NCBI RefSeq assembly: GCF_021389955.1
Contig: NZ_CP089980.1
Coordinates: forward strand, 1,735,501 to 1,799,500
DNA from: Fulvivirga maritima
GTDB taxonomy: Bacteria; Bacteroidota; Bacteroidia; Cytophagales; Cyclobacteriaceae
Length of the DNA stretch: 64,000 nucleotides
Reading direction: 5' to 3'
The notes below the pieces were generated by a model. It was given only the letters and a program-made list of their open reading frames with translations, ran no database searches and was not told the origin of the DNA. Positions within the stretch are counted from its first letter, which is position 1, and each line of letters starts with the position of its first letter. The position numbers were made by a program, and so were the translations under genes. Positions 38,094 to 59,661 of this stretch are shown piece by piece.

Positions 38094-38109
38094 TGTTCCA
38101 CGTGGAACT
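38094..38109. other. parS-like site 1
   Basis: The core GTTCCACGTGGAAC is at 38095-38108. With its flanks it matches the 16-bp parS palindrome TGTTCCACGTGGAACA with one mismatch. ParB is expected to load here and spread to organise the origin region for segregation. Confidence 0.88.
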
Positions 38110-38132
38110 TTAATAAAGCACTTACTCAGATG

Positions 38133-38160
38133 AAATAATGTTCCACGTGGAACATTATTT
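38133..38160. other. parS-like site 2 inside a perfect 28-bp palindrome
   Basis: TGTTCCACGTGGAACA at 38139-38154 is perfect. Symmetry continues through AAATAA on the left and TTATTT on the right. It is the most symmetrical of the four sites and a likely primary ParB loading point. Confidence 0.92.
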
Positions 38161-38184
38161 GAAATCGAGAATTGCAAAAGTTCA

Positions 38185-38200
38185 TGTTCCACGTGGAACA
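38185..38200. other. parS-like site 3
   Basis: A perfect 16-bp TGTTCCACGTGGAACA. It lies 46 bp from site 2 (core to core). Confidence 0.92.
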
Positions 38201-38231
38201 CATACAAAACAACGAATGACATTTAAGACTA

Positions 38232-38247
38232 CGTTCCACGTGGAACA
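38232..38247. other. parS-like site 4
   Basis: CGTTCCACGTGGAACA has the full 14-bp core and one flank mismatch. It lies 47 bp from site 3 and 18 bp before the mnmG ATG, so ParB binding could also influence mnmG expression. Confidence 0.88.
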
Positions 38248-38265: not shown

Positions 38266-40131
38266 ATGTTTCCAGAATATGATGTAATAGTAGTAGGGGC
38301 AGGACATGCTGGATGTGAAGCTGCACACGCGGCGGCTCGAATGGGATCAAAAGTGCTTTTGGCAACTATGAACATGAATACTATAGCTCAAATGAGCTGC
38401 AACCCAGCAATGGGTGGTGTAGCGAAAGGACAGATTGTAAGAGAGATAGATGCGCTCGGAGGGATATCAGGTATCATTTCAGATAAAAGTATGATCCAAT
38501 TCCGTATGCTTAATAAGTCTAAAGGTCCTGCAATGTGGAGTCCACGTACTCAAAATGACAGAATGCGCTTTGCAGAAGAATGGAGATTAGCGTTAGAAGC
38601 CACACCTAATGTAGACTTCTGGCAAGAAATGATCACAGGAGTATTAGTAGAAGGTAATAAAATCAAAGGTGTTACTACAAGTCTTGGACTAGAAATTAAA
38701 GCTAAAGCTGTAGTTCTTACCAATGGAACCTTTTTGAATGGACTGATACATATTGGTGAAAAACAATTCGGTGGTGGGCGTACAGGAGAGAGGGCTGCTA
38801 AAGGAATTACAGAACAACTGGTGAACCTGGGCTTTGAAGCAGGACGTATGAAGACAGGAACGCCTCCAAGAATAGATGGTCGTAGCCTTGACTATTCTAA
38901 AATGGAAGAACAAAAAGGAGATGAGCTACCAGAAAAGTTCTCATATTCTAACAATACCAAGCCATTAGAAAACCAAAGAAGCTGTTTTATTACCTACACC
39001 AATAATAATGTACATGAAGAACTACAGACTGGCTTTGATAAATCTCCCATGTTCAATGGTAGAATACAAGGTGTAGGCCCAAGATATTGCCCATCTATAG
39101 AAGATAAAATAAATAGATTTGCTGAGAGAGAAAGACATCAAATATTTGTAGAACCCGAAGGATGGGATACTGTAGAAATATATGTAAATGGTTTCTCCAC
39201 TTCTTTGCCAGAAGATGTTCAATATAAAGCATTGAGGCTAATACCAGGATTTGAGAATGCCAAAATGTTCAGACCAGGATATGCAATTGAATATGATTTC
39301 TTTCCTCCAACACAACTACAGCTCACCCTCGAAACAAAACTGGTAGAGAATCTATATTTTGCTGGGCAGATAAATGGTACCACAGGATATGAAGAAGCAG
39401 CATGTCAAGGATTAGTTGCAGGTATAAATGCTCATAATAAGATCAATGAAAAAGATCCCTTTGTTCTTAAAAGATCAGAAGCCTATATAGGAGTATTGAT
39501 TGATGATCTAATTAATAAAGGTACCAAAGAACCTTATAGAATGTTTACTTCCAGAGCAGAATTCAGAATTCTATTAAGACAAGATAATGCAGATCTTCGC
39601 TTAACAGAAAAAGGACATAGTATAGGTTTGGCAGACAATGACAGATTAGAAGCTATGCTAGACAAAAAGAATGATGTATCAAGAATAATCAACGATCTAA
39701 ATCAAAAGAGAATAGAACCTGAATACGCAAATGAAGGGTTAAGTTCATTCAATTCTGCAGCACTCAAACAAAGAGTACCAGTCATCGGATTGCTTAAAAG
39801 ACCTGAATTAAACATATTTCAGCTACAGCAATTAGATCCTGATCTTAAAGAATATCTATCCAAATATGATAAGAACATACTTGAACAAGCAGAAATACAA
39901 ATTAAGTATGATAGTTATATAGACAAAGAGCGGCAGCTGGCAGAGAAGATGGAACAATTGGAGAATAAGAAAATACGTGACAACTTCAATTATGATGATG
40001 TAAAAGCATTATCCTCTGAAGCCAGAGAGAAACTAAGAAAGATTCAACCTTCAACCATAGGACAGGCCTCTAGAATAAGTGGTGTATCTCCTGCAGATAT
40101 ATCAATTCTAATGGTCTATTTAAGTAAATAA
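38266..40131 (+). CDS. mnmG: tRNA uridine-5-carboxymethylaminomethyl(34) synthesis enzyme MnmG (GidA)
   Basis: This 621-residue FAD protein works with MnmE to modify U34 of tRNAs. It has the dinucleotide-binding start [22 protein letters not shown], the signature [21 protein letters not shown], and the second FAD motif [19 protein letters not shown]. Length is normal. gidA is often next to the origin, which fits the parS cluster in its upstream region and the DnaA boxes 2.6 kb past its end. Confidence 0.98.
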
Positions 40132-40137
40132 AAAAAC

Positions 40138-41034
40138 ATGTTAGAAACACTTGATCACTGCCCAGTATGCGGTGAGAGTAATTATAATCAATTCCTGACT
40201 TGCAAAGATTATACGGTAAGTCAGGAATCTTTTAATATAGTAGAATGTAGTAACTGTAATTTTCTGTTTACCAATCCAAGACCATTCCCTAAAGATCTAG
40301 GTAAGTATTATAAATCGGAAGAATACATATCACATAGTAATAAATCTAATAATCTAGTAAACTCCATATATAGGGTCGCCAGGAATTACACGCTCAAGAA
40401 TAAGCTCTCTTTGGTGAATAGTTTACAATCAAACAAGGGCAGTTTACTAGACCTGGGTTGTGGTACTGGTCATTTCCTTAAAACCTGTAAAGATGCTGAT
40501 TGGAATACAACAGGAGTAGAGCCTGATGATAGTGCCAGAAGCATAGCTACTGCACAAGAATTAAAGGTATACACCGCAATCCAAGAACTACCGGATAAAC
40601 AATTCGATATCATTTCTATGTGGCATGTGTTAGAACATGTTCCTGATCTTAATGATTACTTAAGCTTCATTAAAACAAGACTAGCTCAAACTGGTACTTT
40701 TATTGTTGCTGTTCCTAATCATGAATCTCACGATGCTCAGAAGTATAAAGACAAGTGGGCGGCCTATGATGTTCCAAGACATCTCTATCACTTCGATCAG
40801 AAGAGCATGGTAAGACTTATGGAAAAACATTCATTGCATGTAAAAGAAGTAAAACCGATGAAATTAGATTCTTATTATGTTTCCATTTTAAGTGAAACCT
40901 ATAAAGGATCGAGTATTGAGAAATATCCAAAAGCTTTCATTTCTGGACTGAAATCGAACCAATACGCACGTAAAAATTCAAACAACTACTCAAGTTTAAT
41001 ATATATAATTGAACACCTTAATGAAGCCAATTAA
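40138..41034 (+). CDS. class I SAM-dependent methyltransferase with zinc ribbon
   Basis: This 298-residue protein has an N-terminal CPVCG...CSNC zinc ribbon (about residues 8-40). The SAM-binding motif I is LLDLGCGTGHFL (near residue 104), followed by WHVLEHVPDLNDYL. It resembles methyltransferases acting on sugars or lipids in envelope synthesis. The substrate is unknown. It follows mnmG after 6 bases and overlaps the lipoprotein gene. Confidence 0.88.
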   Translation: MLETLDHCPVCGESNYNQFLTCKDYTVSQESFNIVECSNCNFLFTNPRPFPKDLGKYYKSEEYISHSNKSNNLVNSIYRVARNYTLKNKLSLVNSLQSNKGSLLDLGCGTGHFLKTCKDADWNTTGVEPDDSARSIATAQELKVYTAIQELPDKQFDIISMWHVLEHVPDLNDYLSFIKTRLAQTGTFIVAVPNHESHDAQKYKDKWAAYDVPRHLYHFDQKSMVRLMEKHSLHVKEVKPMKLDSYYVSILSETYKGSSIEKYPKAFISGLKSNQYARKNSNNYSSLIYIIEHLNEAN

Positions 41035-42739
41035 TTTTTTAATTATACTACTTACTACTCTTTGCATATGGTCTTGTGCTAATCAGACATCACCTACTGG
41101 TGGACCTAAAGATGAAGAACCACCAGAACTAGTATCATCTAATCCTGCTCAGGGAGAGGTGAATTTTAAAGGAGATGAGATCATACTTGAATTCAATGAA
41201 TTTGTTAAAACTGATAATCCTAAAGAACAGATACTCATTACGCCCAGAGTAGATCAGGAATACACCTTCAAATACAAAAAGAACAGAGTAATTATAGAAT
41301 TTGAAGAACCACTAAAAGATAGTACCACCTATTCATTAACCTTTAGAGAAGGCATAAAAGATATAACAGAAGGTAATCCTACAGATAATTTAATTCTAGC
41401 CTTTAGTACAGGAAGCTATTTAGACTCTCTTTCCATCTCAGGTAAGGTTACTAATTTAATGAATAATACACCTGCCAAGGATATTACTGTATCTCTTTAT
41501 GATTCTCAAGACACAGTTGATGTTTTTAACGGACCACCAATCTATTTAACTAAGACTGATGAAGAAGGTAATTATAAATTCAATAACTTAAAGAATGGTC
41601 TGTATAAGATCTATGCTTTAAATGATAAGAACAAAAACCTAATGCTCGATAGCAAAACTGAAGCACATGGTTTTAGATCTGCACTCATTCCTCTTGATAC
41701 CAATCTTACGGAAATAGACATTCCAATATTACCAATGGATGTTAGACCGTTCGAATTTCAAAGTGCCAGACAATCAGGAACCACATTCAATGTGAAATAC
41801 AACAAATACATTGATGATTATTCTATAGTTAGAGCAGACAGCATGGGAACTATGTTTAGTAATATCAGTGCCTCTGATCCTAACACAATTGAGCTTTATC
41901 ATAACTTCAACAAGGATAGCTTGCAAGTAATTATTACTGCTACTGATACCACAGGCAGCACCATTATCAACAGTGTATATGCCAAGTTTGAAGAGACTAA
42001 CAGGTCGCCTAATGAATTCAAATCAGAAAGTAAACTTGAGAATGTATTATCTATTGATCCTAAATTCAAAGCTACATTTAATTTCACCAAGCCTATAGCA
42101 CAAATAAATACAGACAGCATATACTTGTTTCTAGATTCTGCAAACATCGTTTTCTTTAAAGAAGATCAATTCACGTGGAACAAACACAAGACAGAACTAG
42201 AGATCAACTATAATATCAATCCAGAATTGTTTGTAGTAGAAGACACCAAAAACGTAACAGCATCTGAGTTATATTCTAAACAATCGTCACCGACTGAATC
42301 GGATACAACTAAAGCAAATAAAGCTCCTGATCCAAGGCCATTCTTTAGATCGGCTAAGGGCACGTTTATATCAATCGAGAACGACAGTAGTAGTAATGTA
42401 CAGTCTAACCTGAGTTTCAACAAACCAGATCAATTAGCCACAGTAGTAGTGAAAATAGAAACTGAAGCCAATAGTTTTATTGTTCAGTTATTAGACACTC
42501 AAAATAAGGTACTTCAGGAGCGCGTGAATGCTAAGGACTTTGAATTTAAATACGTAAAGCCAGGAGACCATAAACTACGTGTATTGGTAGATGTAAATCA
42601 GAATGGTGTATGGGAAGCAGGTAACATTACTAAAGACGAAGAACCAGAACCTGTTATATTCTATAAATCATCAGAAGGAAAAGAGCAGTTTCCTTTAAGA
42701 GCTAACTGGGTTTATGGCCCCTGTGAGATATCATTTTAA
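41021..42739 (+). CDS. Big_5-domain lipoprotein
   Basis: With ATG 41021 the protein has 572 residues and begins MKPINFLIILLTTLCIWSCANQ, a lipoprotein signal with its lipid-carrying Cys at residue 18. An Ig-like Big_5 domain follows (about 30-125, PPELVSSNPAQGEVNFKGDE, ...TYSLTFREGIKDITEG), then a carboxypeptidase-like repeat region (about 130-230, ISGKVTNL...YKFNNLKNGLYKIYAL). The rest is beta-rich. It is expected at the outer membrane. The frame begins at a TTG (41009), but the ATG fits the lipoprotein signal better. It ends at the first DnaA box of the origin. Confidence 0.85.
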   Translation: MKPINFLIILLTTLCIWSCANQTSPTGGPKDEEPPELVSSNPAQGEVNFKGDEIILEFNEFVKTDNPKEQILITPRVDQEYTFKYKKNRVIIEFEEPLKDSTTYSLTFREGIKDITEGNPTDNLILAFSTGSYLDSLSISGKVTNLMNNTPAKDITVSLYDSQDTVDVFNGPPIYLTKTDEEGNYKFNNLKNGLYKIYALNDKNKNLMLDSKTEAHGFRSALIPLDTNLTEIDIPILPMDVRPFEFQSARQSGTTFNVKYNKYIDDYSIVRADSMGTMFSNISASDPNTIELYHNFNKDSLQVIITATDTTGSTIINSVYAKFEETNRSPNEFKSESKLENVLSIDPKFKATFNFTKPIAQINTDSIYLFLDSANIVFFKEDQFTWNKHKTELEINYNINPELFVVEDTKNVTASELYSKQSSPTESDTTKANKAPDPRPFFRSAKGTFISIENDSSSNVQSNLSFNKPDQLATVVVKIETEANSFIVQLLDTQNKVLQERVNAKDFEFKYVKPGDHKLRVLVDVNQNGVWEAGNITKDEEPEPVIFYKSSEGKEQFPLRANWVYGPCEISF

Positions 42740-43104
42740 TGTGGATAAGTGTAGATAACTTATGTGGACAGCTGAGAACATATTGTGGGCAAATGAGAAT
42801 TCACACCAAATTTCAGTATTTTGTGTGGATGGCGGAGAACAACTCACATTTATACCATCAGAAATCCACAATCAACACAAAGATTTTATTTTATCCACAA
42901 AGACACATTTATTCTGTGGACATTTTATAAATGATTGTTTTACAGTAAATTATATAGAAACTAGCTGTGGATAAACTATGGACAAGTTCAGATTTAATAA
43001 ACAAATGTTTTATGCAAACTATATTTTTAATACTTATCCACGTATCCACATCTTAATAGATAATAATAATTTTAAATAAATATATATTATATAAAATATA
43101 GAGT
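42740..43104. other. putative chromosomal replication origin (oriC)
   Basis: This is a gene-free 365-bp stretch. Perfect DnaA boxes (TTATCCACA or its complement) occur at 42740-42748, 42891-42899 and 42966-42974. One-mismatch boxes are at 42750-42758, 43034-43042 and 43042-43050. More distant ones are near 42763, 42784, 42824, 42862, 42915 and 42977. An almost pure A/T tract (43051-43100) follows and would serve as the unwinding element. dnaA itself is not in the window. The short open frames crossing this region are chance. Confidence 0.85.
43051..43100. other. AT-rich tract, candidate DNA unwinding element
   Basis: After TCTTAATAGATAATAATAAT the sequence is nearly all A and T up to the start region of the next gene. 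It adjoins two overlapping DnaA-box-like sites at 43034-43050, the usual geometry for origin melting. Confidence 0.6.
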
Positions 43105-43131
43105 GTGAACAGTGTGAATAACATGAGCGAG

Positions 43132-44940
43132 ATGAAAATTTTGATCCTTCTTACATTTCTTACTTTATCTGTTTTTGTGCAAGCACAAAAATTTGATGAA
43201 GTACAGTTGGCCAATGAATATTTCACTAAAGGTGAAACTGAAAAAGCTTTAAGCATGTACGAAGACCTTTCGCGGCAGATGGCTAATATTCCACTTATCC
43301 ACAATAACTATTTCCATCTCCTGCTGGAGATGAAAAAATATGACGAGGCTCAGAAATATTTGCGCGGCCTTACCAAGCGTTTTCCAAACAATGTGTATTA
43401 CAGGTTAGACGAAGGCCTCATTTATGAAAGTCAGGGAAATGAAGAAAAAACTAATAAGCACTTTCGCCAAATTATAAATGACATAAAAGATGACAACTAC
43501 CTGGTGCAAACCGTGGCCAGTTATTTTGTGAATAAACAGTTTACCGCTTTAGCTGCAGAAACTTTGGAGCAAGCACGCAAGGCCATGCATAATGATAACC
43601 TTTATGCTCTGGAACTTGCCAATGTTTATCGGGTAGCCAATGAGAAGGACAAGATGGTGGAAGAGTATCTCAAGTATGTTACTCAAAACCCGGCCAACTT
43701 AAGTTATGTGAAAAACACTTTGCAAAACTTACTGGTAGAGCCGGAAGAACTTGAAAGTCTGGAAAATCTGCTTTATCAGAAAATACAAGATGAGCCTGAC
43801 AGTCAGATTTATGGAGAATTGCTTATTTGGGTAAACTTACAGCAGAAGAATTTCTATGGTGCTTTTATTCAGGCTCGAGCAATAGATAAACGAATGAAGG
43901 CCGAAGGGAGTAGGAGTATGAACATTGGCCATATAGCTCTGGACAATAATGATTACGAAACGGCCATTAAGGTTTTTTCATACATCATTAAAACTTATCC
44001 TGAAACTTATAACTATTTGCTAGCTCGTATGTATTTGATAAAAGCCTATGAGAAGAAAGTTAAAAACACTTTCCCTGTTGATAAAGAAGAAATAAAAATT
44101 CTGATAAAGGATTATGACATCTTTGTGAGTGAAATGGGGATAAACAGAAATACTTTGGAGGCTCTTAGAAACAAAGCTTTACTCCATGCTTTTTATCTGG
44201 ATCAGAAAGATTCGGCCATTGCTATTTTAAAAAAAGTTATTGAAAACCCTAAGGCTACTAGCGAGCTAAAATCTCAATCTAAGCTAGACCTGGGAGATAT
44301 TTATATTCTTACTGGCGAACCGTGGGAATCAACATTGCTCTATTCTCAAGTAGAAAAATCTAATAAAAACGAGCCGCTTGGTTATGAAGCCAAATTGAAA
44401 AATGCCAAGCTCTCTTACTACAAAGGAAATTTTCAGCTAGCACAAGAGCATCTCGATATTTTGAAACAAGCTACCACACGTGAGATAGCAAATGATGCTA
44501 TGGCATTAAGTATTTTGATAAAAGATAACGTAGCTTTGGACAGCACGGAAACAGCGATGAAAAAATACGCCGCTATTGAACAAATGCTTTACCAAAATAA
44601 AACGGATAGTGCTTTGGTAGCCATTAAGCAAATGCGCAAAGAATTTTCTCGTCATAGTTTGTCTGACGAACTACTGTGGCTGGAGGCAGATATTTACAAA
44701 AAGAGAGGAGACTTTGAAGAGTCCATTCGTTTACTGAAAAAAATAGTAGATGAATATGATTATGATATCCTCAGTGATGATGCCTACTTTACCATGGGAG
44801 ATATTTATGACAAACAACTGAATGATAAAGAAAAGGCGATGGAAATCTATCGTGATTTTCTCACCCGCTATCCGGGCAGTGTATATGTAGCTGAAGCTAG
44901 AAAGCGCTATAGGCAGTTACGTGGAGATTTCAATATGTAA
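43132..44940 (+). CDS. secreted TPR-repeat protein
   Basis: The protein starting at ATG 43132 has 602 residues and a signal peptide, MKILILLTFLTLSVFVQAQ. The GTG at 43105 and the ATG at 43123 are alternatives. Tetratricopeptide repeats occur throughout, such as LANEYFTKGETEKALSMYED near the start, and a YfiO/BamD-like end (DKEKAMEIYRDFLTRYPGSVYVAEARKRYRQL). It probably scaffolds a periplasmic or outer-membrane complex. A perfect DnaA box lies inside it at 43295-43303. It is the first gene to the right of the origin. Confidence 0.85.
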   Translation: MKILILLTFLTLSVFVQAQKFDEVQLANEYFTKGETEKALSMYEDLSRQMANIPLIHNNYFHLLLEMKKYDEAQKYLRGLTKRFPNNVYYRLDEGLIYESQGNEEKTNKHFRQIINDIKDDNYLVQTVASYFVNKQFTALAAETLEQARKAMHNDNLYALELANVYRVANEKDKMVEEYLKYVTQNPANLSYVKNTLQNLLVEPEELESLENLLYQKIQDEPDSQIYGELLIWVNLQQKNFYGAFIQARAIDKRMKAEGSRSMNIGHIALDNNDYETAIKVFSYIIKTYPETYNYLLARMYLIKAYEKKVKNTFPVDKEEIKILIKDYDIFVSEMGINRNTLEALRNKALLHAFYLDQKDSAIAILKKVIENPKATSELKSQSKLDLGDIYILTGEPWESTLLYSQVEKSNKNEPLGYEAKLKNAKLSYYKGNFQLAQEHLDILKQATTREIANDAMALSILIKDNVALDSTETAMKKYAAIEQMLYQNKTDSALVAIKQMRKEFSRHSLSDELLWLEADIYKKRGDFEESIRLLKKIVDEYDYDILSDDAYFTMGDIYDKQLNDKEKAMEIYRDFLTRYPGSVYVAEARKRYRQLRGDFNM

Positions 44941-44994
44941 AGTGCTTTAGGAAAGCATGAATATTTGTAAGTCAAAATAAGAAGTTGGAAGAAA

Positions 44995-46745
44995 ATGAAT
45001 ATACGCAGACTGTTTGATGTACTTCTGTTTCAAAATGAAGACAGACCGCAACAGGTATCACTTGCACATAAAATAGATAATCAGTGGAAACAATTTTCCA
45101 CCGAGGAAGCCATAAAAATTGGTAATCAGCTCAGTACTGGTCTGCTAAAAGCAGGGATTAAGCCAGGAGATAAAATTGGGTTGGTATCACTTAACCGACC
45201 TGAATGGGTCATCGTTGATTTTGCCATTTCTCAAATTGGTGCCATCAATGTACCCATGTATCCAAACTCTACGGCTGAAGATTATGCCTACATCGTAAAT
45301 GATGCTGAAGTTAAAATAGTATTTTCCGGAGATGCTAACCTGTTCGCCAAACTGGAAAAGACAGTAACTCTTGTAGACCATGAGCTGTCTCTTTATAGTT
45401 TCGAACGTCGGTCAGATGAGTATGCCTGGACTAATCTACTTGTTGAAGAAATTGATCACTCAAGCATTGAAGCCTTAAGAGCTCAAATTGAGTACGAAGA
45501 TCTTGCTACGATCATCTATACTTCGGGTACTACAGGTAATCCTAAGGGGGTGATGCTTTCTCATAAAAATATTATCTCAAATGCAGGCGCTGTAACGAAA
45601 GCTTTTGCTATGGGTGGACCCGAACACACGGTTCTCAGTTTTCTTCCTCTAAGCCACATCTTTGAGCGCACAGCGCTGTATGTATACCTACAGATGGGAG
45701 CGTCAATTTACTACGCCGAGAGTATGGACACTATTGCGGAAAATATGAGGGAGGTAAAGCCTCACTTTTTGCTACCGTTCCCAGGCTGTTAGAAAAGGTT
45801 TATGAAAAAATTCTGGTAACAGGATATGAGCTTAAAGGAATTAAAAAAGGCCTTTTCTTCTGGGCACTTAACCTAGCCAAGAAATATGATTTGAATAAGC
45901 CCAAAGGATTTGTGTATAACTTACAACTTGCCTTGGCAAACAAAATCATTTTCAGCAAATGGCGAGAAGCTCTTGGTGGCAGAGTAGAATTTATTGTTTC
46001 TGGCGGCGCGGCCCTGCAGCCGAGACTTGCTAACATTTTCTGGGCTGCTCAGATAAAAGTGCTCGAGGCCTACGGCCTTACAGAAACTTCTCCCGGTATA
46101 AGCTTCAGCCTTATTGATGATCTTAAGGTCGGTTGTGTAGGTCCGTTGCTAGAAGGAATACAAGTAAAAATAGCGAATGACGGCGAAGTACTCGTGAAAG
46201 GTGACAACGTGATGATGGGCTACTACAAACGTCAGGATCTTACAGATGAAGTGATTGATGGAGACGGTTGGTTTCATACTGGTGATATTGGTGAAATGGT
46301 GGATAACCATTATTTAAAAATCACTGATAGGAAAAAGGAAATGTTCAAAACCAGTGGTGGAAAGTATATTGCACCACAAGCGTTAGAAAATAAATTTGCC
46401 GAATCATTATTGATAGATCAGATTATGATAGTAGGTGAAGGGCAGAAATTCCCTGGCGCACTGATAGTTCCTAACTTCGAAAAACTAAGAACCTGGTGCG
46501 AACTTCATGATTTGGCTTATACCACTGACAGTGAAATGATAAGTAATCCACAAGTTGTGGATAAGTATGAGCGAGAAGTGGCAGGACTCAATGAATCTTT
46601 CGCTCAATACGAAAAAATAAAAAAATTCCGGCTGCTACCGCAGCACTGGACCATCGAGAATGGAGAAGTTACTCCCAAGCTTAGTCTGAAAAGAAAAATC
46701 ATTATTAAAAATTATCAGTCTGTTATTGACAGCATTTATAATTAA
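44995..46745 (+). pseudogene. long-chain acyl-CoA synthetase (AMP-dependent ligase) split by a one-base frameshift
   Basis: The N-terminal part (44995-45792) has the AMP-binding motif IIYTSGTTGNPKGVMLSH and the start of the FACL fold. It ends abnormally with HFLLPFPGC. The C-terminal part is in another frame and continues the family sequence without loss from 45771 (ATVPRLLEKVYEKI) to 46745, with GDGWFHTGDIGEM and ITDRKKEMFKTSGGKY. Adding one base in the run of five T at 45766-45770 restores a single frame of 583 residues (HFFATVPRLL). This is a sequencing error, a recent mutation or slippage at the T run. The enzyme would activate fatty acids with ATP and CoA. Confidence 0.88.
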
Positions 46746-46748
46746 AAA

Positions 46749-47228
46749 ATGATTATCGGAATCGGTGGATTAAGCAGAGCCGGAAAAACTACTCTTTCCA
46801 AAAATCTGGCTGAGCATTTGGGTGTAGAAAGCACCCATCTCTTTCATCAAGATGATTATGTGAAATCTGAAAGTGAAGTTCCACTTATCAACGGTCGTTT
46901 GGATTGGGATCATCCGGAAGCCATGGATTATGAAGGCCTTATACAGGCCATAAAAAATGTTGACTCTGGTAATGTTATAGTAGAGGGCATTCTCGTGTTC
47001 TTTAATTCCGAGCTCAAAAACATGTTTGATAAGAAAATTCTTATGGAAGTGGAGAAATCCACATTTTTAGCTCGAAAACGTGTGGATAACCGCTGGGGAC
47101 CCGAACCAGAGTGGTTTATTGAGCATATTTGGGAAAGTTATCAACAATTTGGCCGACCACAGGATATGAATGATTACATTTTGATTAAAGAAAATGAGCA
47201 TTTCGATTTAACTCAAATCTGCAATTAA
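46749..47228 (+). CDS. uridine kinase-like P-loop kinase
   Basis: This 159-residue protein has Walker A GIGGLSRAGKTTLSKNL, a Lid/Asp region (HLFHQDDYVKSE), and VIVEGILVFFNS. It resembles the uridine kinase/nicotinamide riboside kinase group. Its small size favours a nucleoside or ribosyl-nicotinamide kinase, but the substrate is not fixed. It starts 3 bases after the acyl-CoA synthetase gene. Confidence 0.82.
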   Translation: MIIGIGGLSRAGKTTLSKNLAEHLGVESTHLFHQDDYVKSESEVPLINGRLDWDHPEAMDYEGLIQAIKNVDSGNVIVEGILVFFNSELKNMFDKKILMEVEKSTFLARKRVDNRWGPEPEWFIEHIWESYQQFGRPQDMNDYILIKENEHFDLTQICN

Positions 47229-47340
47229 TTTGTGGAATGGCTTTTTCCAAAATCGCTATCATTTTTATTTACTAAAAGTATAAATTATAAGCGTAATTGG
47301 GCATTCAATAATTCTTACCAAGACACTTTCAAAACAACAA

Positions 47341-47369
47341 TGAGCCAATTAGACCTTCTAATCGGCTCA
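47341..47369. promoter_or_regulatory. palindromic operator-like element 1
   Basis: TGAGCCAATTAGA (47341-47353) and TCTAATCGGCTCA (47357-47369) form an inverted repeat with one mismatch. It has the same half-site (GAGCCRATTA) as element 2, suggesting binding sites for a dimeric regulator. Confidence 0.65.
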
Positions 47370-47384
47370 TAATTTTGCTATATT

Positions 47385-47413
47385 TGAGCCGATTAGCTTA
47401 AATAATCGGCTCA
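47385..47413. promoter_or_regulatory. palindromic operator-like element 2
   Basis: TGAGCCGATTA (47385-47395) and TAATCGGCTCA (47403-47413) are perfect inverted copies. The right arm touches an ATG at 47413 that begins the short frame MTYNWQHRNWSRV. Together with element 1 it looks like an autoregulatory region left from a lost gene. Confidence 0.65.
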
Positions 47414-47563
47414 TGACATATAACTGGCAGCATAGGAATTGGTCAAGGGTTTAGTTGAGAAGATTGTCCGAATTCTTATAGTCTAAATTGCATTTACCAA
47501 CCAAGAGATAGAAGAACTTTATCAACAAGTAAATGTGGGTACGCCTATTGAAATCTTTCCATA
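47413..47563 (+). pseudogene. possible remnant of a Fic-family (DUF4172) gene
   Basis: ATG 47413 starts MTYNWQHRNWSRV before a stop. MxxxWQxxxWP-type starts are typical of Fic proteins with an N-terminal DUF4172 domain. The piece further on (about 47498-47563, TNQEIEELYQQVNVGTPIEI) is open in another frame and may be its tail. Nothing between is intact. The assignment rests on a short motif and could be wrong. Confidence 0.3.
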
Positions 47564-47564
47564 G

Positions 47565-48503
47565 TTAACTCACCACATGAATAGGATTTCCACTCATAAA
47601 TAGTTTCAGGTTGTTAAGTACTATTTCTTGTAATCGATGTTGTGCTTCTGCAGTCATCCAACTAATATGAGGGGTGATTATACAATTTTTCGCGGTAAGC
47701 AAAGGATCATTTTCAGTAGGTGGTTCTTGGGTAAGCACATCTAAACCGGCTCCGGCTAATTGATTTTGGTTAAGCGCTTTTACCAGATCCTTTTCATTTA
47801 TTACTGCCCCCCGGCTAGTGTTGATAAGATAGGCCGAAGGTTTCATTAACTTTAGTAAACTTTCATTGACCAAATTTGTAGTCTCTTGTTTTAGAGATAC
47901 ATGTATGGACACCACATCGCTTTCGCTAAACAATTTTTCAATATTTACCAGAGTACCAATACTGGTTTCCGTTGCATGTTTTGAATGAATGAGCACTTGC
48001 ATACCAAAACCACTGGCAATTTTTGCTACTTCTTTTCCCGTGGCGCCCCAGCCAAGTATTCCTATGGTCTTGCCGTGCAACTCTACCATAGGATTAGTGT
48101 AATAACTAAAGTTAGTATCGCGCACCCATTCCAGGTTTTTGTGCTCGGCGGTAATTCGGTTAGTGAGCTGTAGTAATAAACCAAAAGTATGCTGAGCAAT
48201 GGATACTACACCATAGCCCGGAGCATTAGTAACTGTAACATTATGCTTTTTTGCTGCTACTAAATCTACATGATCAAAGCCTGTGCCGGTAAGGCCAATA
48301 TATTTCAACTGAGGAAGTTGCTCTATAATTACACCTGTCATTCTACATTTGTTAAGAATTACGGCATCAGCATTTTTGGCACGTTCCACTATCTCATCCT
48401 GATGTGATTTTTCATAAAGGGTAAGACTTCCTAAATCTTTAAAAGGCTCCCAATATTCCGTAAAGGCATTAATGGTAAAGCTATCTAAAACTACAATATT
48501 CAT
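47565..48503 (-). CDS. D-2-hydroxyacid dehydrogenase (glycerate dehydrogenase-like)
   Basis: This 312-residue NAD(P)-dependent enzyme has the Rossmann motif TIGILGWGATGKEVAKIA (near residue 148). The catalytic Arg is in LINTSRGAVIN, the Glu in LTQEPPTEND, and the His in IITPHISWMTAEA. It reduces 2-keto acids such as hydroxypyruvate or glyoxylate. The exact substrate is not fixed by sequence. Confidence 0.92.
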   Translation of the reverse strand: MNIVVLDSFTINAFTEYWEPFKDLGSLTLYEKSHQDEIVERAKNADAVILNKCRMTGVIIEQLPQLKYIGLTGTGFDHVDLVAAKKHNVTVTNAPGYGVVSIAQHTFGLLLQLTNRITAEHKNLEWVRDTNFSYYTNPMVELHGKTIGILGWGATGKEVAKIASGFGMQVLIHSKHATETSIGTLVNIEKLFSESDVVSIHVSLKQETTNLVNESLLKLMKPSAYLINTSRGAVINEKDLVKALNQNQLAGAGLDVLTQEPPTENDPLLTAKNCIITPHISWMTAEAQHRLQEIVLNNLKLFMSGNPIHVVS

Positions 48504-48565
48504 AATGGAAAGATAAGCATTGAATATGTTTATAACCCAATGCTTTTGTTTCCTGTTTATTAATT

Positions 48566-48754
48566 ATGCTCGAACAAGAACATTTTTTCACTTGCCCTTA
48601 CTGTGGAGAAACCATTTCTATGTTTCTGGATGTTTCAGTGAGAAAGCAACAGTACATTGAAGATTGTGAAGTGTGTTGCAATCCTATTCAGATTAATTAC
48701 GAATTTGAAAATGAAATTATTATTTCATTTTCTGCCCGCTCTATAGAGCAATAG
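48566..48754 (+). CDS. CPXCG-motif cysteine-rich small protein
   Basis: This 62-residue protein has TCPYCGETI and CEVCCNPIQI, two zinc-knuckle Cys pairs. It matches the small CPXCG family, which is widespread but uncharacterised. It is divergent from the dehydrogenase and convergent on the YkgJ-type gene. Confidence 0.88.
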   Translation: MLEQEHFFTCPYCGETISMFLDVSVRKQQYIEDCEVCCNPIQINYEFENEIIISFSARSIEQ

Positions 48755-48762
48755 CCCTTGAT

Positions 48763-49356
48763 TTATGCTCTTCTGGGTTTGCGGTAAGCATAGTAGCTAA
48801 GTACTATTTTCAGCGCTTCCAAAATGGCTTGGTTTATAGGCATTAAATTTTGCCCTAATTCAGAGTCAATAGATCTAAGCTGAAAATAATAATTGCGCAT
48901 TACAGGTGTTTTTTTCCCTTCCGCAATATGTTGCTGAGCAGTTAGTACTGCCTGTGGTAGCTCCGTTTTTATAGTTTTGCACGTTACTAATTGCGGTGTG
49001 CCTTGTTTATCTAGCATGGCAGAATAACCAAAAAGCCTGCAAATAAGGCCACGGTATTTATAATTACTACAAAAACCGGTATCACCATCCGTTAGCAGTG
49101 GTCTGAAAATTTTGCAAATAGGTTCACTGCCAGAAGCTTGTAATTCTTCCAGCCATTGGTAAGCCAGATCTTCTTTAAAAAGTGAATAGGCCAATGGTAA
49201 AAACTCCAGCGGACTAGCTGAAATATCTGGCTTTTTGCAACACAGTCCGCAACCTGAAATACAGTGCAGTCCGGTAGCATTTTTAAAGGCAGCCAGTTCC
49301 TTTTCCAGGTTGGAGAAAACCCGTTCTACAGCCTGAACTTTACGATAAATTGACAT
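48763..49356 (-). CDS. YkgJ-family cysteine cluster protein
   Basis: This 197-residue protein has a cysteine cluster: CISGCGLCCKKPDIS near residue 32, PICKIFRPL, FCSNYKYRGLICRLFGYS, and VTCKTI. The family is thought to bind zinc or an Fe-S cluster; function is unknown. It is followed 67 bases away on the same strand by the rhomboid gene. Confidence 0.88.
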   Translation of the reverse strand: MSIYRKVQAVERVFSNLEKELAAFKNATGLHCISGCGLCCKKPDISASPLEFLPLAYSLFKEDLAYQWLEELQASGSEPICKIFRPLLTDGDTGFCSNYKYRGLICRLFGYSAMLDKQGTPQLVTCKTIKTELPQAVLTAQQHIAEGKKTPVMRNYYFQLRSIDSELGQNLMPINQAILEALKIVLSYYAYRKPRRA

Positions 49357-49423
49357 CCGTAAAAAACGGTGTGAAATTAGTAAAGAGCAGAAATATTAAT
49401 TCTTAAATCCTCAGAAAAATTTC

Positions 49424-51340
49424 TTAAAAATTAATGGTCTGATAGCCCTGAGAAATTACAGAATGAATACCATGTTCTTTAGCCGGTATCCAGCGCGGTC
49501 CACCTTTCAAAATATTGATAGCTGTAACATGTAAATCTGCATCATCACTTTTATAAATGCGCACATTATATATTTTACCTTCCGTATCTATATCAAAAAT
49601 TAAGGCTACAGTTCCTTTACCTTGCAAATGAGGATACTGTAATAATGATTTTTCTACATAGGTTTGAAACTGTTCCCTTCCTCCTTCCGGATGTGGTATG
49701 TAAGTGCTGAAATCATAATTAAAAAGTTGACCTTTTTTGTCATATGCGATTCCTTTCATTAATCGGCCACTTTCATAATATTCTTTGAAATAGGGTTCAC
49801 CATTTTCATAAAAACCGTAGCTAACACTATCTTGAAGTCCATCACTAAAATGTTTGTAGGAGGCAACGGTTCCGTTTTCATATTGCTTTACAATATTTCC
49901 AAATCCGTTCTCTACCTGAGGTTTTTGATTTTCATCCCAGGCATTGATTAGATAGGCACGGTCAGAATATCTAACTTCTTGAGCCATTTTACCATTTTCA
50001 TGGAATTCTTCCCATTTGCCTATTCGCTCTTCATTATCATATCGACCCGCGGCAGAGTAAGTGCTGTCTTTAGTATAATAAAGGAAAACGCCATTTTTCA
50101 AATCATTTTTATAAGTACCTTTCATCTGTATGCCACCATCAAGAAAATAATCTCTTACCGGTCCGTTCCATTTTCCTAAACTATCTTGATAACCTAGTCT
50201 ATAATAACTGGCATTCATGGCCATAGTCTCATGCCAGTTACTGTCATAATACTGCCTTGTCATGCTGCCACAAGATTGAGGTACTGGTAAGTTAGTAGTT
50301 TCCGGAACTTCATCAGCCACTGACTCCATAGCCAAAGGGTATTCAAGATCCAGATTCATTTTTGATCGGATGATGTCAAGACTGTCGAAATACACGTATG
50401 ATTCTTTTTCAATCATTTTAATCATAAAATCCATCTCGCTGGCTTTGCTATGACTATAGGTTTTTATCTGATCATAATCACCCATAAGTGCAGTGGGTAA
50501 GTTGGTAAGACTATCCATTTTCCACAACAGGCTGTCCCAATGTGGATAAAACTCTTTTAAGTCTTTAATAAAAACCGCATCAGAAGCATATTCGCCATTC
50601 ATGATATTGTTACTCTGCCTCTCGGTTTTTACTAATTGTTGAAAAACATCAAAATATTCTTTTTTGGCTCTTGGCAACAACATGAAATAAGCAAAACCAA
50701 GGAATGTTAATGTTACTCCGGTAATCCAGAAATAATTGATTTTTCTGCGGTACATGCTGTAAGCATAAAACAGGGCCAAAATAATACCGGCTATCATACC
50801 ACCGAAATGAGCGGCATTATCAAAATGAAACGCGTTGCCCATCAGAGTGATGATAACTATGTAGATAACAAACTGCACAATAATTGCTCGCAGCTTTTGT
50901 CTATTTCTCCAATGGATTAAAACCATGATAGCAATTTCAAAACCATAGAGACCAAATATGGCACCACTGGCACCGGCACTCACCACGTACAAATTCCAAA
51001 AAAGGCTGGCTACGCCAGCAAATAGAGCACTAATAATATAGACTACGCAAAAAATTAAACTACCCGTTTGCACTTCTACTGCTCTGCCCAAACTGTACAA
51101 AGCCACCATATTCATAACCAGATGCAAAGCTCCGAAATGAAGAAAAGCACTGGTAAATATGCGCCACCAGTCACTACCTAAAGTGTAAGGAGAAAAATTA
51201 GCGCCCCATGAAATCATAGTGATAATGTTACTTTGATCATCCTCCAGAAGCCATTGTGCTATAAACACAAGTACATTAATGGCTATAATTATGCTGGTAA
51301 ATACTGGTATGGGCTTTCCGGAGCGAGAAGTAAGTATCAT
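49424..51340 (-). CDS. rhomboid protease fused to MORN-like repeats and a TonB-like C-terminus
   Basis: This 638-residue protein has a rhomboid domain at about 1-235 with six membrane helices, the catalytic Ser125 in GASGAIFG and the catalytic His178 in NAAHFGGMIAG. After a charged linker there are YwqK/MORN-type repeats (about 370-550, MKGTYKNDLKNGVFLYY, RIGKWEEFHENGK). The last 80 residues resemble a TonB C-terminal domain (GTVALIFDIDTEGKIYNVRI, GPRWIPAKEHG). Rhomboids cut membrane proteins. The added parts would lie outside the inner membrane and may recruit substrates or outer-membrane partners. Confidence 0.85.
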   Translation of the reverse strand: MILTSRSGKPIPVFTSIIIAINVLVFIAQWLLEDDQSNIITMISWGANFSPYTLGSDWWRIFTSAFLHFGALHLVMNMVALYSLGRAVEVQTGSLIFCVVYIISALFAGVASLFWNLYVVSAGASGAIFGLYGFEIAIMVLIHWRNRQKLRAIIVQFVIYIVIITLMGNAFHFDNAAHFGGMIAGIILALFYAYSMYRRKINYFWITGVTLTFLGFAYFMLLPRAKKEYFDVFQQLVKTERQSNNIMNGEYASDAVFIKDLKEFYPHWDSLLWKMDSLTNLPTALMGDYDQIKTYSHSKASEMDFMIKMIEKESYVYFDSLDIIRSKMNLDLEYPLAMESVADEVPETTNLPVPQSCGSMTRQYYDSNWHETMAMNASYYRLGYQDSLGKWNGPVRDYFLDGGIQMKGTYKNDLKNGVFLYYTKDSTYSAAGRYDNEERIGKWEEFHENGKMAQEVRYSDRAYLINAWDENQKPQVENGFGNIVKQYENGTVASYKHFSDGLQDSVSYGFYENGEPYFKEYYESGRLMKGIAYDKKGQLFNYDFSTYIPHPEGGREQFQTYVEKSLLQYPHLQGKGTVALIFDIDTEGKIYNVRIYKSDDADLHVTAINILKGGPRWIPAKEHGIHSVISQGYQTINF

Positions 51341-51468
51341 ATTGTGGATAAACTAAATTTAGTCGAATAAAAGGTCGTGCACTTATAAATGTTTTGCAAA
51401 TTAAAGATCACAATGTTTCTTTTCAGTAGAATTCACATCTACTATACACATTTTACGTATCAAAGCAC

Positions 51469-53205
51469 ATGAGCAAAAGCAAAGTAACTATAAGTCATGT
51501 ATTCAAAACGATAGTATGGCCAAGAAAATACCAGTTGTTATTAGGTTTACTATTAGTATTTATAAGTAGGATAGCTGGTCTGGTGCTGCCAGGCTCTAGT
51601 AAGTTTTTGTTAGACAATGTTATTCCTGATAATAATATTGATAATCTAAAGCTGCTCATAGGTGTAGTAGTACTAGCCATATTAGTGCAGGCCGTTACTT
51701 CATTTTTACTTACGCAGATTTTAAGTGTAGAAGCCCAAAACTTGATAGCCCAACTGCGGCTTAAAGTGCAAAGTCATATTATAAAATTGCCGATAAGGTA
51801 TTTTGATAATACTAAAACAGGTGAACTGGTTTCCAGAATAATGACTGACGTAGAAGGGGTGAGGAATATTGTGGGTACCGGATTGGCCCAGTTATTTGGA
51901 GGCATACTTACTTCTATAATTTGTCTGGGAATTTTAATTACCATCAGTCCTATGATGACCCTGTATGTGTTAGTACCAGTAGTTATTTTCGGACTGATTT
52001 CACTAAAGGCCTTTGGTTATATACGTCCTATATTTCGCGAACGAGGAAAAATTAATGCTGAAGTAACTGGCAGACTTACCGAAACCCTGGGCGGGATAAG
52101 AGTGATTAAAGGGTTTAATGCAGAGCAACATGAAATTGAAACTTTTGAAAAGGGGGTAACCAGACTTTTTCTTAACGTGAAGAAAAGCCTCACTTCTACC
52201 AGTATCATGACTAGTTCATCTACCTTTTTGCTGGGCCTGGCCACAGCAGGTATAATGGGTATTGGCGGATATATGATGATGAATGATGAGCTTAGCACGG
52301 GAGATTTTCTGGCTTTCACTTTGTACTTGGGCTTTATGATTGCACCTATAATACAGATGAGTAATATTGGTAGTCAGCTGACTGAAGCTTTTGCCGGGCT
52401 GGACAGAACAGAAGACATTTTAAACGAGCCTTTGGAAAATGATGATTTACAGCGAACGGAAAAATTGGAAAATGTAGAAGGTCATATTCATTTTGACAAG
52501 GTAGAGTTTGCTTATGAAGAAGGTAAAAAAGTGATAAAAGGAGTTTCTTTTGATGCTCCCGCTGGTAGTGTAACCGCACTGGTGGGTACTTCTGGTTCTG
52601 GTAAGTCTACCATAGCCGGTTTGGCAGCATCATTTTTAAATCCTAAAGCTGGTACTATCACTGTAGACGGAACCGATCTTTCAAAAGTATCTTTGGAAAG
52701 CTATAGAAGTAAACTCGGAGTAGTTTTACAAAATGATTTTCTTTTTGAAGGTACTATCAGAGAAAACATACTTTTTCCACGGCCCGATGCTACTGAGGCA
52801 CAACTATTACATGCTGTAAAAGCAGCACATGTTAATGAATTTACTGATCGTTTTGAAGAGGGCCTCGAAACAGTCATTGGTGAGCGCGGGGTAAAACTTT
52901 CTGGTGGCCAACAGCAGCGTATAGCCATAGCTCGAGCCATATTGGCTGATCCGAGAATATTGATTTTAGATGAAGCAACTTCTAATTTGGATATGGAAAG
53001 TGAAGCATACATTCAAAAAAGCTTAAAAGACCTGATGCAGGGAAGAACCACTTTTGTCATAGCTCACCGCCTCAGTACCATCCGACAGGCCGATCAGATT
53101 TTAGTAGTAGAAAATGGAAATATTGTAGAAAGAGGCACGCATAATGAACTTATAAAACAAGAAGGCCGCTATCATGAACTATATACTTATCAAGCGAGGA
53201 TATAA
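51469..53205 (+). CDS. ABC exporter half-transporter
   Basis: This 578-residue protein has a six-helix membrane domain (about 1-300, with RYFDNTKTGELVSRIMTDVE). The ATP-binding domain (about 335-570) has Walker A GTSGSGKST, signature LSGGQQQRIAIARAIL, Walker B ILILDEATSNLD and the H-loop AHRLST. The export substrate is unknown; the family includes lipid, peptide and drug exporters. It is divergent from the rhomboid gene. Confidence 0.95.
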   Translation: MSKSKVTISHVFKTIVWPRKYQLLLGLLLVFISRIAGLVLPGSSKFLLDNVIPDNNIDNLKLLIGVVVLAILVQAVTSFLLTQILSVEAQNLIAQLRLKVQSHIIKLPIRYFDNTKTGELVSRIMTDVEGVRNIVGTGLAQLFGGILTSIICLGILITISPMMTLYVLVPVVIFGLISLKAFGYIRPIFRERGKINAEVTGRLTETLGGIRVIKGFNAEQHEIETFEKGVTRLFLNVKKSLTSTSIMTSSSTFLLGLATAGIMGIGGYMMMNDELSTGDFLAFTLYLGFMIAPIIQMSNIGSQLTEAFAGLDRTEDILNEPLENDDLQRTEKLENVEGHIHFDKVEFAYEEGKKVIKGVSFDAPAGSVTALVGTSGSGKSTIAGLAASFLNPKAGTITVDGTDLSKVSLESYRSKLGVVLQNDFLFEGTIRENILFPRPDATEAQLLHAVKAAHVNEFTDRFEEGLETVIGERGVKLSGGQQQRIAIARAILADPRILILDEATSNLDMESEAYIQKSLKDLMQGRTTFVIAHRLSTIRQADQILVVENGNIVERGTHNELIKQEGRYHELYTYQARI

Positions 53206-53261
53206 TTATTTTAAAAAGATTAAGTGTAAAATACACTACTAAATAGGATTAATAGTTAAAA

Positions 53262-53304
53262 AGGTATATTTTATAATAAAATATTTTAATTAAAAGATAT
53301 ACCT
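53262..53304 (+). promoter_or_regulatory. inverted repeat abutting the next start codon
   Basis: AGGTATAT (53262-53269) and ATATACCT (53297-53304) are perfect inverted copies. The second ends immediately before the ATG at 53305, so folding could hide the start. Confidence 0.3.
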
Positions 53305-54501
53305 ATGAAAATTATTTGTCTACTAGTGTGCTTTATTACTTGTGCTGCACAAGCACAAACTAATTTTGTAAATGGTTATTTTATTGATAACCAAAATATA
53401 AGAACTGATTGTTTGATTAAAGATCAAGATTGGAAAAATAATCCAACATCTTTCACTTATAAACTTGATAGAGAATCTCAGGTTGAAACGGCAACAATTG
53501 AAGATGTGCAAGAATTTGGGATAAGTGATTATTCAAAATACATCAGACAAACGGTACTCATTGATCGATCCTCAGAAGAAATTAAGGAGATGAGCTCAAC
53601 CAGAGCCCCAGAAAATAATAAGGAAACTTTATTTCTGATGGTTTTAGTAGAGGGTGCTGCCAACCTGTATGGATATCAGGATGGTAATCTTAGACGATTT
53701 TTCTTTTCTACTCAGCAAAATGATAGCATTAGACAATTAGTATTTAAAAGTTTCAAAATAGACAAATACGAAATAGGTACTAATCAGCAGTATAAACAAC
53801 AGATTAAGGTCGAGCTTCCTTGTGAGAAAATAACGGATAAGCAGATAGAAAATCTGGGATATAATAAGAAGGATCTTTTAAAATTATTTAATATTTATAA
53901 TCAATGTGGAAAAGAAGAATCAGACATAAGTACAGATCAGCCATCAGTCTATCAAAGAAAAAGCAGAAATCTCTTTAAGCTTGGACTAAGAGTAGGATTG
54001 GGTCATGATATGGTGGCTGTTAAAAGTGAGGTCTCTTATTACGAGCCAATGGAGACAGACTATAAAATTACGCTTAGATTAGGCGCCGAGCTTGAATTCA
54101 TATTGCCATTTTGGAATGAAAAGGTATCTCTAATTTTGGAACCGAACTACAAAAGTTTTCAATCTTCTAATCTAGGTGAATCTGGTATGGAGGTGGATTA
54201 CTCATTCATAGAGATTCCATTGGGTGTGCGCTATAACTTTTACTTGACTCCATCATCTACCATATTTTTGAATGCACAATATGCTGTTGTGCCAATTAAT
54301 AGAGGGAATATTCATTATAAAAACCAATATACAGATAGAAAAATGAAACCAGAACATCATAACTACATCGTTGCTGGACTAGGTGTAAAAATCAAGAGGT
54401 TTACTATGGAGGCAAGAATCGGTACTCAACGAGATGTATCAATTCCCTGGGAATCAGAATATAAATCAACAAATATTATCCTTGGCTACCATTTGTTTTA
54501 A
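53305..54501 (+). CDS. secreted outer-membrane beta-barrel-like protein of unknown function
   Basis: This 398-residue protein has a signal peptide, MKIICLLVCFITCAAQAQ. The N-terminal domain (about 20-200) contains GYFIDNQNIRTDCLIKDQDWKN, seen in Bacteroidota proteins of unknown function. The C-terminal half (about 220-398) is strand-rich (LFKLGLRVGLGHDMVAV, FIEIPLGVRYNFYLT, VAGLGVKIKRFTMEARIG) and looks like an eight-stranded barrel. It is monocistronic, 99 bases after the ABC exporter. Confidence 0.72.
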   Translation: MKIICLLVCFITCAAQAQTNFVNGYFIDNQNIRTDCLIKDQDWKNNPTSFTYKLDRESQVETATIEDVQEFGISDYSKYIRQTVLIDRSSEEIKEMSSTRAPENNKETLFLMVLVEGAANLYGYQDGNLRRFFFSTQQNDSIRQLVFKSFKIDKYEIGTNQQYKQQIKVELPCEKITDKQIENLGYNKKDLLKLFNIYNQCGKEESDISTDQPSVYQRKSRNLFKLGLRVGLGHDMVAVKSEVSYYEPMETDYKITLRLGAELEFILPFWNEKVSLILEPNYKSFQSSNLGESGMEVDYSFIEIPLGVRYNFYLTPSSTIFLNAQYAVVPINRGNIHYKNQYTDRKMKPEHHNYIVAGLGVKIKRFTMEARIGTQRDVSIPWESEYKSTNIILGYHLF

Positions 54502-55144
54502 TTGGTAATTAAAAATCAGGGAGACATAATAACCTTTTACAAAACCGCTCTGTAGTCAATACGACATAAGGAGAAAACTTTTAAATTTCTGGCTAACTTC
54601 TAATAAGGCCTGAATCCTTGAGATTTTTTAAAATGCCTGTGAAGGAAATAACAAGTCTTATGAAAGGTTAAAAACAGTTAATGCATAATTAAATCATGAA
54701 TCAGAACTGGTCGTCTACACTTCGACGCGGCTCAGTGTGACTCGGCAGTGGTTTCATCTTGCTGTACCGTCGTGAGGTGAAATAATATTGAAAAGCAGGC
54801 TTTTCTCAAGTCCTTAGTGGCAGGTCATAACTATGAAATGCTTCTTTGGTCGGAAGACCTCACAGCAAGAAAGAGTTTTTTGTTACTTTTTTGATCGATT
54901 GCAAAAAGGAACATAAAACTAGATAATCCAAATGGACTAGTATTTGAAATGCCTTACTTACAAGAATAGATTGATGTATCCTTTTAATCCAATCTTGGTG
55001 CGGTTGAAACAAATGTTAGGCCTCTATATGACCGGATGGGCTTATAGGTATAAACCAATTCTATTAGTCATTTCAACATAAGGAGAAATCTTTTAAGTTC
55101 TATATGTCTCTAAATCAAACACATAATTAAAACCTATACCCAGG
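54502..55144. repeat. intergenic block built from REP-like dispersed repeats
   Basis: No gene is visible in these 643 bases. A repeat of about 36 bp with the shared core ACATAAGGAGAAA occurs as direct copies at 54554-54590 and 55066-55101. A palindromic unit lies at 54713-54742. TGTTACTTTTTT and AAAAAGGAACA (about 54880-54913) form an imperfect inverted repeat. The stretch GGTCGGAAGACCTCACAGC near 54848 looks like another repeat fragment. The composition suggests several mobile palindromic elements decayed in place. Confidence 0.6.
54713..54742 (-). repeat. REP-like palindromic unit, copy C
   Basis: GTCTACACTTCGA and CTCAGTGTGACT pair to form a hairpin. Read on the reverse strand it is the same unit (AGTCACACTGAG, GAAGTGTAGAC) as at 61846 and 62009, so it is a dispersed family. 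Confidence 0.7.
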
Positions 55145-57584: not shown

Positions 57585-57769
57585 GCAGTAAGTAAAGCTA
57601 GTATAATTACAGGTTAATCATAATACATTTATAGCTATTCACTCCGCCTAATATACATTTCAGTATTTGTATTATTCCATTCATTCTAATGGGTCAGGAA
57701 GGTTAGAGGATAAGTGGGTTAAAACCATAAATCTTTAATCTAATACATAACACCTTAAAAATTAAAATC

Positions 57770-59569: not shown

Positions 59570-59584
59570 AAAGTTTATGATTTT

Positions 59585-59630
59585 GAACAGGGTGTTATTT
59601 ATGATCATTAAGTGACACCTTGTTCTTTTT
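59585..59630 (+). terminator. intrinsic terminator of the fasciclin gene
   Basis: GAACAGGGTGT (59585-59595) pairs with ACACCTTGTTC (59615-59625), with one G-T pair, over a 19-base loop. A run of T follows. Confidence 0.8.
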
Positions 59631-59661
59631 CTTGTTATTGAAAAAGATCTGATTTATTGCC

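Follow-up and report, generated by a model that had tools for sequence, protein, structure and literature searches.

A candidate chromosomal replication origin of Fulvivirga maritima lies between genes for a Big_5 domain protein and a TPR protein, far from dnaA

The DNA analyzed, a window of 64,000 nucleotides, represents bases 1735501-1799500 of the F. maritima genome, which consists of one contig of 6,392,613 bases; positions refer to the window unless genome positions are indicated. On the + strand, mnmG (gidA, 38266-40131) is followed by a methyltransferase gene (40138-41034), by the gene for a Big_5 domain protein (41009-42739), considered a lipoprotein in the original prediction, and by a gene encoding a TPR protein with a signal peptide (43132-44940). 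The latter two are the left and right neighbors of the intergenic stretch described here, with the Big_5 gene serving as syntenic anchor. The gap between them, previously placed at 42740-43104, is real, but its right end had to be moved. The TPR gene was listed from a GTG at 43105, whereas the ATG at 43132 opens a typical signal peptide and is the more likely start, so that the free stretch extends from 42740 to 43131. Farther to the right, an AMP-binding acyl-CoA ligase (44995-46745) is distributed over two open frames with a break at approximately 45793-45890, representing either a frame break or a sequencing error. A tRNA search of the 64-kb window revealed none.

In total, three perfect DnaA boxes (TTATCCACA), three boxes with one mismatch and seven with two mismatches were counted within 42740-43050 (311 bp), in agreement with the three perfect, at least three one-mismatch and several weaker boxes predicted for about 310 bp. 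The whole stretch 42740-43131 contains three perfect and four one-mismatch boxes. Perfect boxes are located at 42740-42748 (- strand), immediately 3' of the Big_5 stop codon, at 42891-42899 (+) and at 42966-42974 (-); in the alignment of 14 genus members, the first of these is free of mismatches in 10 (own genome included). One-mismatch boxes were found at 42750-42758 (-, TTATCTACA) and 43113-43121 (-, TTATTCACA). Furthermore, a tandem pair of co-oriented boxes, TTATCCACG and GTATCCACA, occupies 43034-43050 (+), its members, with one mismatch each, starting at 43034 and 43042, i.e., 8 bp apart with one base in common. Downstream of the pair, a DnaA-trio-like run, TAA TAG a TAA TAA TAA (43054-43069, +), was recognized by the rule given in the accessible part of PMC8287927; it is kept in the genus alignment and beyond. 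The near-pure A/T tract that had been expected to follow the boxes was recovered at 43052-43101, next to the tandem pair, as the least stable 50-mer of the window, and is presumed to represent the duplex unwinding element. The 50-mer ranking second, at 53265, is less pronounced and is not accompanied by a box cluster.

The cluster exceeds chance expectation: none of 5000 dinucleotide shuffles of 42740-43131 contained three perfect boxes, and none of 5000 contained seven boxes with at most one mismatch. It had also been described as the densest cluster, which held for the sequence surveyed. A scan for boxes with at most one mismatch, covering 2,231,500 bases (35%) of the 6.39 Mb genome, yielded six boxes per 320-bp window at the cluster and a maximum of three outside it. 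Neither among the 67 perfect boxes of the genome nor in the 35% scanned for one-mismatch boxes was a stronger cluster detected, and the 64-kb window has no other cluster of equal density. Density alone would not prove an origin, since 3 of 60 anagram motifs also reach six per 320 bp somewhere (57 do not).

Perfect boxes also become rarer with distance from the cluster. Their frequency per 100 kb is 22 within 25 kb (cluster included), 4.7 up to 100 kb, 3.3 up to 250 kb, 1.8 up to 500 kb and 0.46-0.70 beyond. The resulting near/far ratio of 11.35 compares with a median of 0.94 for anagram motifs in sampled sequence; of 200 anagrams drawn, five were excluded because of their rarity in the distal sample, and the remaining 195 all stayed below 11.35. 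In G004, a complete genome of the genus, a hand count gave eight boxes within 25 kb of its cluster; of 84 boxes in total, 31 (3.1 per 100 kb) are no more than 500 kb from the cluster and 53 (approximately 1.0) are farther away, a weaker trend than in the own genome.

Two further features of box distribution were observed. More than 500 kb from the cluster, perfect boxes occur at approximately 0.5 per 100 kb, compared with an anagram median of 1.24 in the distal sample, as if they were avoided away from the origin in this genome. Genome-wide, 67 perfect boxes stand against 98 matches to the reversed motif; unlike in the own genome, boxes are not depleted relative to the reversed control in G004 (84 vs. 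78) and G014 (109 vs. 73). Of the 11 perfect boxes in the window, eight are spread over 43295-60181, the 17 kb to the right of the intergenic stretch, and possibly are titration sites; none lies in the 42 kb to the left.

In order to locate the switch in strand composition, GC skew was determined in eighty 20-kb samples, some of which hold runs of N; a 16S rRNA search of the genome gave no match. The sign of the skew changes twice, from minus to plus at 1.70-1.76 Mb and the other way at 5.22-5.28 Mb. Within 664 kb of contiguous sequence around the candidate origin, the raw cumulative minimum falls at genome position 1739123, which corresponds to position 3623 of the window and precedes the cluster by 39 kb. 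Taken literally, this touches the refutation clause of the original prediction, which named a minimum elsewhere. Nearly all genes at 3.6-27.5 kb of the window are on the + strand and pull the curve up, and the raw minimum is therefore read as an effect of gene orientation. A change-point fit to third-codon-position G/C and T/A of 487 open reading frames of at least 450 bp, with gene strand as covariate, placed the switch at the cluster: the optimum is 1777.5-1779.5 kb, with the runner-up 5.9 log units lower, and the cluster lies at 1778.24 kb. The median of 2000 bootstraps was 1778.5 kb (95% interval, 1766.0-1787.5 kb, 21.5 kb wide), with 66% within 5 kb and 84% within 10 kb of this value. None of the 2000 came within 3 kb of 1739.5 kb, and an origin at the raw minimum was rejected. 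After the same correction, the optimum was 1766.5 kb with GC alone (up to 1770.5 kb at a cost of no more than 0.3 log units) and 1791.5-1792.5 kb with AT alone; because these positions differ, the resolution of the switch is no finer than approximately 20 kb.

The opposite switch is placed only roughly, because the raw skew maximum of the contiguous 5.16-5.36 Mb stretch, at 5167408, lies only 7 kb from the stretch's left end, while the samples point to 5.22-5.28 Mb. Within 864 kb of the genome scanned for dif-like sites, the best one, at 5183499, agrees in 19 of 20 positions with a dif consensus and would divide the chromosome into arms of 3.41 and 2.99 Mb. The runners-up reach 15 of 20 in the same 200 kb and 16 of 20 in the 664 kb around the origin.

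Proximity to mnmG and to parS-like sites had been put forward in support of an origin, and the sites proved to be exact. Four parS sites (GTTCCACGTGGAAC), starting at 38095, 38140, 38186 and 38233, i.e., 45-47 bp apart, occupy 38095-38246 (genome 1773595-1773746) between ybeY and mnmG, 4.5 kb from the cluster. All four match NGTTNCACGTGNAACN exactly (reversed control, 0), and no further exact parS was found in the window or the genome. The genome also encodes ParB, with a single match at 5909535 (5.91 Mb), 2.26 Mb from the region of the cluster and parS. The presence of parS near the Fulvivirga origin region differs from the situation in Escherichia coli, which is not known to have a chromosomal ParABS. 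The sole dnaA family match is located at 3.10 Mb, 1.32 Mb away, as anticipated for an origin without adjacent dnaA. The encoded DnaA carries GGRDHSTV, the usual box-reading motif.

Conservation was evaluated in related genomes. Matches to the TPR protein were obtained in 55 of 58 genomes, counting the own one, in some cases weak repeat matches only, and 50 TPR loci including the own one were examined; L142, which ends at a contig end, was dropped. At least three boxes with at most one mismatch were present upstream of TPR at 37 of 41 Big_5-TPR junctions (own included); of the others, L166 and L177 have two each and L159 and L160 none. Of the eight loci lacking a detected Big_5 gene within 6 kb of the TPR gene, one (L170) has at least three boxes and seven have 0-1. 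The comparison of 37/41 with 1/8 gives a Fisher p of 2.8e-5, with relatedness ignored and three boxes being the authors' own choice of threshold; since related genomes are not independent observations, such values overstate the evidence. Moreover, mnmG was sought in 18 genomes and found in 17, for 12 of which the 5 kb behind mnmG were fetched. There, all seven Big_5 loci, which show no TPR match in the 5 kb, keep three to seven boxes in 400 bp, and all five loci without Big_5 have 0-1. The element therefore tracks the Big_5 block, usually together with mnmG, and not the TPR promoter. L159 and L160, from one genus of another family, keep parS, mnmG and Big_5 and have no box with at most one mismatch in a gap of approximately 385 bp, which may reflect either diverged boxes or a moved origin. 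In 12 of the 14 other genus members, exact parS sites share a contig with TPR and precede it by approximately 5 kb; of the remaining two, one has parS on another contig, and in one no parS was found. Overall, 51 of 58 genomes gave a parS match, with places known among the matches listed, vs. 7 for the reversed control.

These results bear on three other explanations of the cluster. The boxes could control transcription of the TPR gene or, like datA or DARS, titrate DnaA, the true origin being elsewhere within tens of kb. Their position upstream of a gene, the eight additional perfect boxes dispersed at 43295-60181 and the raw skew minimum at 3623 can be cited in favor, but this reading is very unlikely. 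At seven of the eight loci where the fetched stretch shows a TPR gene and no Big_5, 0-1 boxes are present, and the Big_5 loci without a TPR match retain their boxes at seven of seven; a role as TPR promoter boxes was rejected on the basis of these loci, where TPR and Big_5 stand apart. In addition, the window offers neither a second cluster of such density nor another exact parS, and its next least stable 50-mer (53265) is weaker and lacks a box cluster.

An origin next to dnaA (3.10 Mb), the arrangement of many bacteria, follows a rule of thumb that applies to other phyla only and was rejected as extremely improbable. The 3,486-bp stretch holding dnaA has no box with at most one mismatch, and all skew samples from 1.76 to 5.22 Mb are positive, without a switch at 3.10 Mb. 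Finally, low G+C content and the 3 of 60 anagram motifs reaching equal density somewhere leave room for a chance cluster in A/T-rich DNA. In view of the 5000 shuffles, none of which reproduced the box counts, and of a tandem pair present with at most two mismatches in all 14 genus members, chance has a practically negligible probability.

The best-kept part of the stretch identified as the candidate origin, in an alignment of 14 genus members including the own one, is TTWTCCACGTAtyCACA, followed by approximately three bases, TAATA..ATAATA and the A/T tract. The tandem pair has no mismatch in 11 of these genomes (own included), one in two and two in one. In the own genome, the pair at 43034-43050 is the sole zero-mismatch match to TTWTCCACNWATCCACA; at two mismatches this motif is no commoner than its reversed control (18 vs. 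16). In the order, 22 of 390 genomes (own included) carry one copy of the motif TCCACNWATCCACANNNTARTA, compared with 0 of 390 for the reversed control; six of these 22 places, the only ones looked at, lie beside a box cluster seen in this analysis. A looser form was found once each in 7 of 296 genomes of the phylum (own included; control, 0), three of the seven being from one other family of the class. An exact-motif scan of named contigs yielded seven loci, representing four named Fulvivirga species, one Fulvivirga MAG, one Cytophagales bacterium and one Flammeovirgaceae MAG.

Spacing was analyzed in 56 regions by scanning for co-oriented boxes, each with at most two mismatches, at every offset from 6 to 16. 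On the strand of the own pair, offset 8 was found in 34 regions and no other offset in more than six; none of the 34 belongs to the eight loci without Big_5. On the opposite strand, offsets 11 (17 of 56) and 10 (12 of 56) were observed, which in our reading reflect the pair adjoining the Big_5 gene. Of the 34 offset-8 pairs, 33 are succeeded by a TA[A/G]-type start, mostly after three (22) or four (7) bases. Alignment on this start fixes positions 0-2 by construction; beyond them, A was found at positions 4, 8, 11 and 14 in 29, 27, 33 and 28 of 33 regions, and at positions 7, 10 and 13 in 11 of 33 each. Past the second unit, the three-base rhythm is thus shifted by a single base.

This core fits a basal unwinding system (BUS). 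The strand arrangement of trios and boxes agrees with that of the E. coli origin. The trios share the strand that reads TTATCCACA at the boxes, in accordance with the consensus 3'-[G/A]AT-5' as it appears in the available text of PMC10797057. According to the accessible part of PMC8287927, a BUS combines three or more NAN trinucleotides with a box no more than 16 bases from them, and tandem boxes are up to 3 bp apart. In the present stretch, two co-oriented boxes precede the trios: the distance from the second box to the contiguous run TAATAATAA is 10 nt, and 11 nt separate the upstream box from the first TAA. Three contiguous NAN trios, TAA TAA TAA, are located at 43061-43069, with the two preceding units one base out of phase. 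Tandem co-oriented boxes, a short spacer, central-A trinucleotides and a melting tract are likewise described for Bacillus subtilis and other species in that part of PMC8287927. Differences concern the register, with box starts 8 bp apart and one base shared where the rule as stated there sets only an upper limit of 3 bp between boxes, and the central A's, spaced 3-4-3-3 instead of 3-3-3-3. The six species whose DnaA was tested besides B. subtilis, as named there, include none from Bacteroidota. The conserved 8-bp register together with the phase slip may represent a BUS variant. More tentatively, and with somewhat less than even confidence, Cytophagales could possess a distinct BUS, defined by the 8-bp register with one common base and the one-base slip after the second trio, so that the DnaA filament would have to pass over one base or begin only at the third unit; this BUS would be kept by mnmG-Big_5, with dnaA and parB megabases off.

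Based on sequence anatomy, uniqueness, skew switch, parS linkage and conservation, the stretch 42740-43131 is very probably the chromosomal origin, oriC, of a Fulvivirga species (Cytophagales). The box cluster, the corrected skew switch, parS, the box gradient and conservation agree in this respect, and the central claim of a likely origin was thereby strengthened. By analogy with known systems, from which DnaA binding, unwinding, helicase loading and segregation are derived, DnaA supplied by the distant dnaA gene would bind the boxes at 42740-42974 and the tandem pair at 43034-43050. A filament starting at the pair would then extend over the trinucleotides (43054-43069) and melt the A/T tract (43052-43101), where the helicase would be loaded. 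Forks would depart both ways toward a terminus near 5.17-5.28 Mb. Segregation of the duplicated origins would fall to ParB, bound to the parS array at a distance of 4.5 kb.

Searches of the literature retrieved no paper treating Fulvivirga together with an origin of replication, and none on origin-proximal parS and ParB in Bacteroidetes. A comparable arrangement is found in Prevotella intermedia OMA14, whose genus belongs to another order than Fulvivirga. For its chromosome I, the accessible text of PMC4755523 (Ori-Finder/DoriC) likewise describes multiple boxes at the skew switch and a distant dnaA; in the present case, parS, BUS and conservation across relatives were tested in addition. The same text states that, according to DoriC, oriC is commonly far from dnaA in Bacteroidetes, and the present finding is therefore a well-supported case of an already known origin type. 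In E. coli, oriC lies between gidA (mnmG) and mioC, as given in the available part of PMC10225481; mnmG is thus nearby in both organisms, with two genes separating it from oriC in F. maritima.

At the strength stated above, the results would place the start of replication of a Cytophagales chromosome within a single intergenic stretch. For draft genomes of relatives, the position 3' of mnmG and Big_5, approximately 5 kb from parS, would provide a landmark, with dnaA being no guide. Furthermore, the box register and the phase slip of the trios would offer a test of how strictly the DnaA filament follows its three-base step.
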